Of a DNA stretch of 17,965 bases, positions 6,317 to 7,750 are shown in pieces. Under the pieces are notes generated by a model. It had not been told where the DNA came from. It worked only from the letters and a program-made list of their open reading frames with translations, and ran no database searches. A program made the position numbers and the translations under genes. The stretch's first letter is position 1; each line of letters starts with the position of its first letter. This DNA is from Symbiobacteriaceae bacterium (GTDB lineage Bacteria; Bacillota_E; Symbiobacteriia; Symbiobacteriales; Symbiobacteriaceae). Location: assembly GCA_027356675.1 (NCBI GenBank), contig DAHVXO010000344.1, forward strand, positions 1 to 17,965, read 5' to 3'.

Positions 6317-7750
<1,434 letters not shown>

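Follow-up and report, generated by a model that had tools for sequence, protein, structure and literature searches.

The analyzed stretch of DNA, referred to in the following as the window (17,965 bp), contains an atpD gene for the beta subunit of the F1 ATP synthase that is interrupted by an in-frame TAG at codon 236 (positions 7028 to 7030, minus strand). The stop codon is real as a fact of the sequence but ordinary in its meaning, and one wrong or rare base is the most likely explanation of the evidence. It is probably a consensus error of a single base in one contig, introduced by sequencing or assembly. In this case, the atpD gene of the organism would encode a tyrosine at residue 236 and yield a normal beta subunit of 472 amino acid residues. 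The contig is that of a Symbiobacteriaceae-like bacterium, probably by way of a metagenome.

The interrupted atpD gene and its neighbors

The reading frame of atpD runs on the minus strand from a GTG at position 7735 to a TAA at position 6317, and CTA at positions 7028 to 7030 of the plus strand is TAG in this frame. With the TAG taken as a residue, the product is a canonical F1 beta subunit of 472 residues. The 5′ part of the gene (7028 to 7735, minus strand) comprises the GTG start, 235 codons in total, and the TAG; it encodes the beta-barrel domain and the first part of the nucleotide-binding domain, including the P-loop, and is recorded as protein P0122. The 3′ part (6317 to 7027, minus strand) continues in the same frame up to the TAA and encodes the remainder of the nucleotide-binding domain and the C-terminal domain. 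An open reading frame of 228 codons within this part, starting with a GTG at position 7003, is recorded as P0242. Both fragments are the window's own products, each with one member on one contig of 17,965 bp.

The preliminary description of this DNA had stated that atpD was open and conserved on both sides of the TAG, and this was borne out: no further stop is present, and the Pfam match continues past the stop. Positions 1 to 98 of the ATP-synt_ab profile end at residue 235, and positions 100 to 213 begin at the first residue past the stop, with a single profile position interrupted by the TAG. The three domains of the beta subunit are contained in one frame in the window, broken at codon 236.

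The other atp genes, which had been described as intact, were all read as open on the minus strand. These are atpC for the epsilon subunit (5887 to 6315), atpG for gamma (7761 to 8627), atpA for alpha (8643 to 10163), and the group of atpH, atpF, atpE, atpB, an atpI-like gene, and an ATPase_gene1 gene (10233 to 13155). The assignments came from gene calls and Pfam, for atpG and atpA also from a comparison with the DNA of relatives; the region 12593 to 12907 had no Pfam match and is named “atpI-like” by its position only. The gene set of the window was chosen from the list of open reading frames and comprised 23 gene calls, of which 22 complete genes entered the count of stop codons. An internal stop occurred in atpD alone. 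Leaving atpD aside, 20 of 22 gene calls were assigned to a Pfam family above the cut-off, and the match of the gene at 2707 to 3393 to DUF1779 was below the cut-off (22.1 versus 25.6 bits). Matches in the DNA of relatives (L001 and L081 to L105) were obtained for 17 of the 23 window proteins. Among the matches listed, up to four per gene, most spanned nearly the whole protein and those of atpE only a part of it. The MreB/Mbl, spoIIID, M23, spoIID, DUF1779, and MazG genes had no match in the DNA of L001 and L081 to L105.

Two plus-strand genes (3594 to 5836) adjoin atpC and converge with the atp genes; one encodes an AAA ATPase, the other a VWA protein of the CoxE-like type. Their called frames share 31 bases, and relatives of both are present in L001.

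Tyrosine at the site in other records and in relatives

The best match of the read-through protein in the protein search was P0002, a protein of 472 residues encoded on a contig of 13,379 bp. It possesses a tyrosine at position 236 and is identical to the read-through product at all other residues from 2 to 472, while residue 1 is methionine in the record and valine in the translation of the window, from the GTG start. All three domains of the beta subunit are unbroken in P0002. In translation table 11, TAG does not give tyrosine. Although the database search classed P0002 with the proteins encoded by the window, its 13,379-bp contig differs in length from that of the window and the window's own record consists of two fragments, from which we infer that P0002 is a separate record. 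A second protein, P0003, is 98% identical and also carries tyrosine at the site, with 10 residue differences, 7 before and 3 after it. The replacement of a tyrosine codon by TAG, as originally proposed, follows from direct reading of the DNA together with Tyr236 in P0002 and P0003. A second source with tyrosine at codon 236 had been set beforehand as a test, and it was found in P0002, at the level of the protein. Known as a protein record, P0002 may nevertheless derive from another strain.

In a MAFFT alignment of the 120 listed best matches of the read-through protein, the column of residue 236 contained 117 tyrosines and 3 histidines. At the DNA level, 70 of 82 relative loci could be aligned over the site, L001 and L081, which are the same gene, both being included in this number; they encoded 65 tyrosines, 3 phenylalanines, and 2 histidines (41 TAC, 24 TAT, 3 TTC, and 2 CAC codons). 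None of these 70 aligned loci had a stop at the site. Three aligned rows contained one stop each, at query residues 466, 467, and 470, which is the normal end of the gene.

Eight genomes from the order of the L001 genome, that genome included, were searched for atpD. Orthologues with 79 to 87% identity were present in seven of them, all open and all with TAC at the site, and the eighth (G003) yielded distant ATPase matches only. A second close copy of atpD was not found in the eight genomes, all other matches being at or below 35% identity. Against each of the seven orthologues, the identity was higher downstream of the stop than upstream, for instance, 213 of 235 versus 198 of 235 residues in L083. 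The locus L084 has the same 27-base context around the site except for the one codon.

The two best of 213 matches to solved structures, 2qe7 chain D in first place and 9nvl chain D, have a tyrosine at the site. The AtpD proteins of the Symbiobacteriaceae resemble that of the window in their 472-residue sequence, their domains, and the neighboring atp genes, but differ from it in the one codon that reads as a stop in the window. The named matches near the top were mostly from Symbiobacteriaceae or Symbiobacterium, with 85 to 89% identity, and others were listed under wider names; on this basis, the organism was placed as a Symbiobacteriaceae-like member of the Bacillota. An 85% match labeled as Mycobacterium leprae (P0048) was taken as coming from a mislabeled bin. 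Longer AtpD-like proteins of 510 to 575 residues with additional precomputed Pfam domains were also seen (P0045, P0051, and P0084).

Consensus error or recent nonsense allele

Evaluation of the TAG needs to consider three options that had been put forward, an error, a recent mutation, or readthrough. Because Tyr236 is present in P0002 on another contig, an error or a rare allele is favored, and there is little reason to invoke suppression; the first two of these options were thereby retained, and the third lost ground. As to the choice between the two, we infer a wrong base rather than a minority allele. Counted against the error were that a single suspect base was noticed in the 18 kb and that two other database proteins, P0196 and P0230, end at the same site.

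The TAG lies inside the 5-base loop of a 5-bp inverted repeat, GCGGA/TCCGC (7022 to 7036). The DNA fold of this repeat had a z score of −2.78, and 3 of 200 shuffled sequences folded equally well. Inverted repeats and GGC had been linked with Illumina errors in previous studies, as mentioned in a paper that itself proposes another cause (PMC4787001). The context is common to L084 and is not special to the record of the window, so that the repeat is only suggestive as the source of a sequencing error. An exact 36-base pattern from the site, with one match in the window, had no copy in viral contigs.

A genuine recent nonsense mutation, the main rival of the error, would mean that a strain, or a part of the population, possesses a broken atpD and no working F1, and that the carrier ferments or is about to be lost. 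This is possible, albeit rather unlikely. The tyrosine codons are one base away from TAG, P0002 would represent the intact allele, and a recent event should have left neither a further stop nor a drop in identity downstream, as is the case here. Moreover, in the search that returned P0122, 9 of the 120 listed matches, P0122 among them, end just before the position of a tyrosine in the query, which has 12 tyrosines in 472 residues, although a contig edge may account for some of them. On the other hand, the other atp genes are open, a null allele would need to be in the majority among the reads behind the contig, and a second high-identity contig with the truncation did not occur among the 120 listed matches of that search, P0122 being on one contig and the next match at 83% identity. 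An old pseudogene was rejected, with no further stop present and the downstream identity above the upstream identity against all seven orthologues.

Proteins that end at the same site were evaluated in 121 mapped rows, which were the 120 listed matches of the search that returned P0122, plus the full-length query. Four rows end at position 235. One is P0122, the window itself; P0175 has a different last residue; and P0196 and P0230 have the same MAE end. The latter two, distant AtpD records of 229 and 231 residues with 63 to 67% identity, end exactly before the tyrosine of the site, and their ends could be nonsense alleles, errors, or contig ends. A mutation hot spot is not claimed, P0196 and P0230 being known as proteins only.

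Suppression, split subunit, and recoding

A full-length beta subunit made from this allele by natural amber suppression or by programmed readthrough of codon 236 is very improbable. In its favor are the intact, conserved frame past the stop and the histidine or phenylalanine at the site in some relatives, so that the subunit might tolerate the residue inserted. Against this stand the same protein recorded with tyrosine elsewhere, a stop at the site in none of the 70 aligned loci, and the use of TAG as a natural stop in 8 of the 22 complete genes of the window. In addition, the base directly after the TAG codon is a T, a context favoring termination. No tRNA gene was found in the window, nor any Rfam match at the gathering score. 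PylS was not above the curated cut-off in any of the eight order-level genomes of relatives; weak matches below the cut-off in two of them mean little, since 13 of 14 control genomes also gave a match, one of them above the cut-off. The organism's own genome may yet encode a suppressor tRNA. Conserved programmed readthrough was rejected in view of the lack of a stop at the site in the 70 loci and TAC in all seven orthologues. Hardly to be expected, too, is a real TAG allele of this core energy gene that is kept by an amber-suppressing tRNA making enough full-length beta subunit. If the TAG were both real and suppressed, however, it would be a case of natural amber suppression in a core energy gene.

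Pyrrolysine or amber decoding shares the in-frame TAG with the window but differs in that TAG is here a common stop, that none of the 70 loci has a stop at the site, and that PylS was absent above the cut-off from all eight relatives. A typical pyrrolysine gene encodes a methylamine methyltransferase, and atpD is not such a gene.

A beta subunit split into two separately translated pieces could use the in-frame GTG at position 7003 in the 3′ part, but the cut would be inside the nucleotide-binding domain, between the P-loop and Walker B, and the unbroken form is recorded as P0002, which makes this scenario highly improbable. A genome-wide change in the meaning of TAG, to tyrosine or to some other amino acid, for which only the in-frame TAG itself speaks, is close to negligible and contradicted by the stop usage of the window (TAG 8, TAA 7, and TGA 7 in 22 complete genes), the lack of an internal stop in the 22 gene calls besides atpD, and TAC in the seven orthologues. 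The preliminary description had also regarded recoding as unlikely, on the basis of TAG as the natural stop of “at least nine” neighboring genes; with the gene set used here, the number was eight, and the judgment stands.

The probable consensus error in atpD agrees with what is generally known of single-base nonsense artifacts or alleles in assembled contigs, in that an in-frame stop interrupts a conserved housekeeping gene and the unbroken protein is recorded on another contig, and no difference from such cases was found. The case serves mainly as a caution: where a conserved gene shows a lone in-frame stop in one contig, other contigs of the same species should be consulted before recoding or readthrough is considered.
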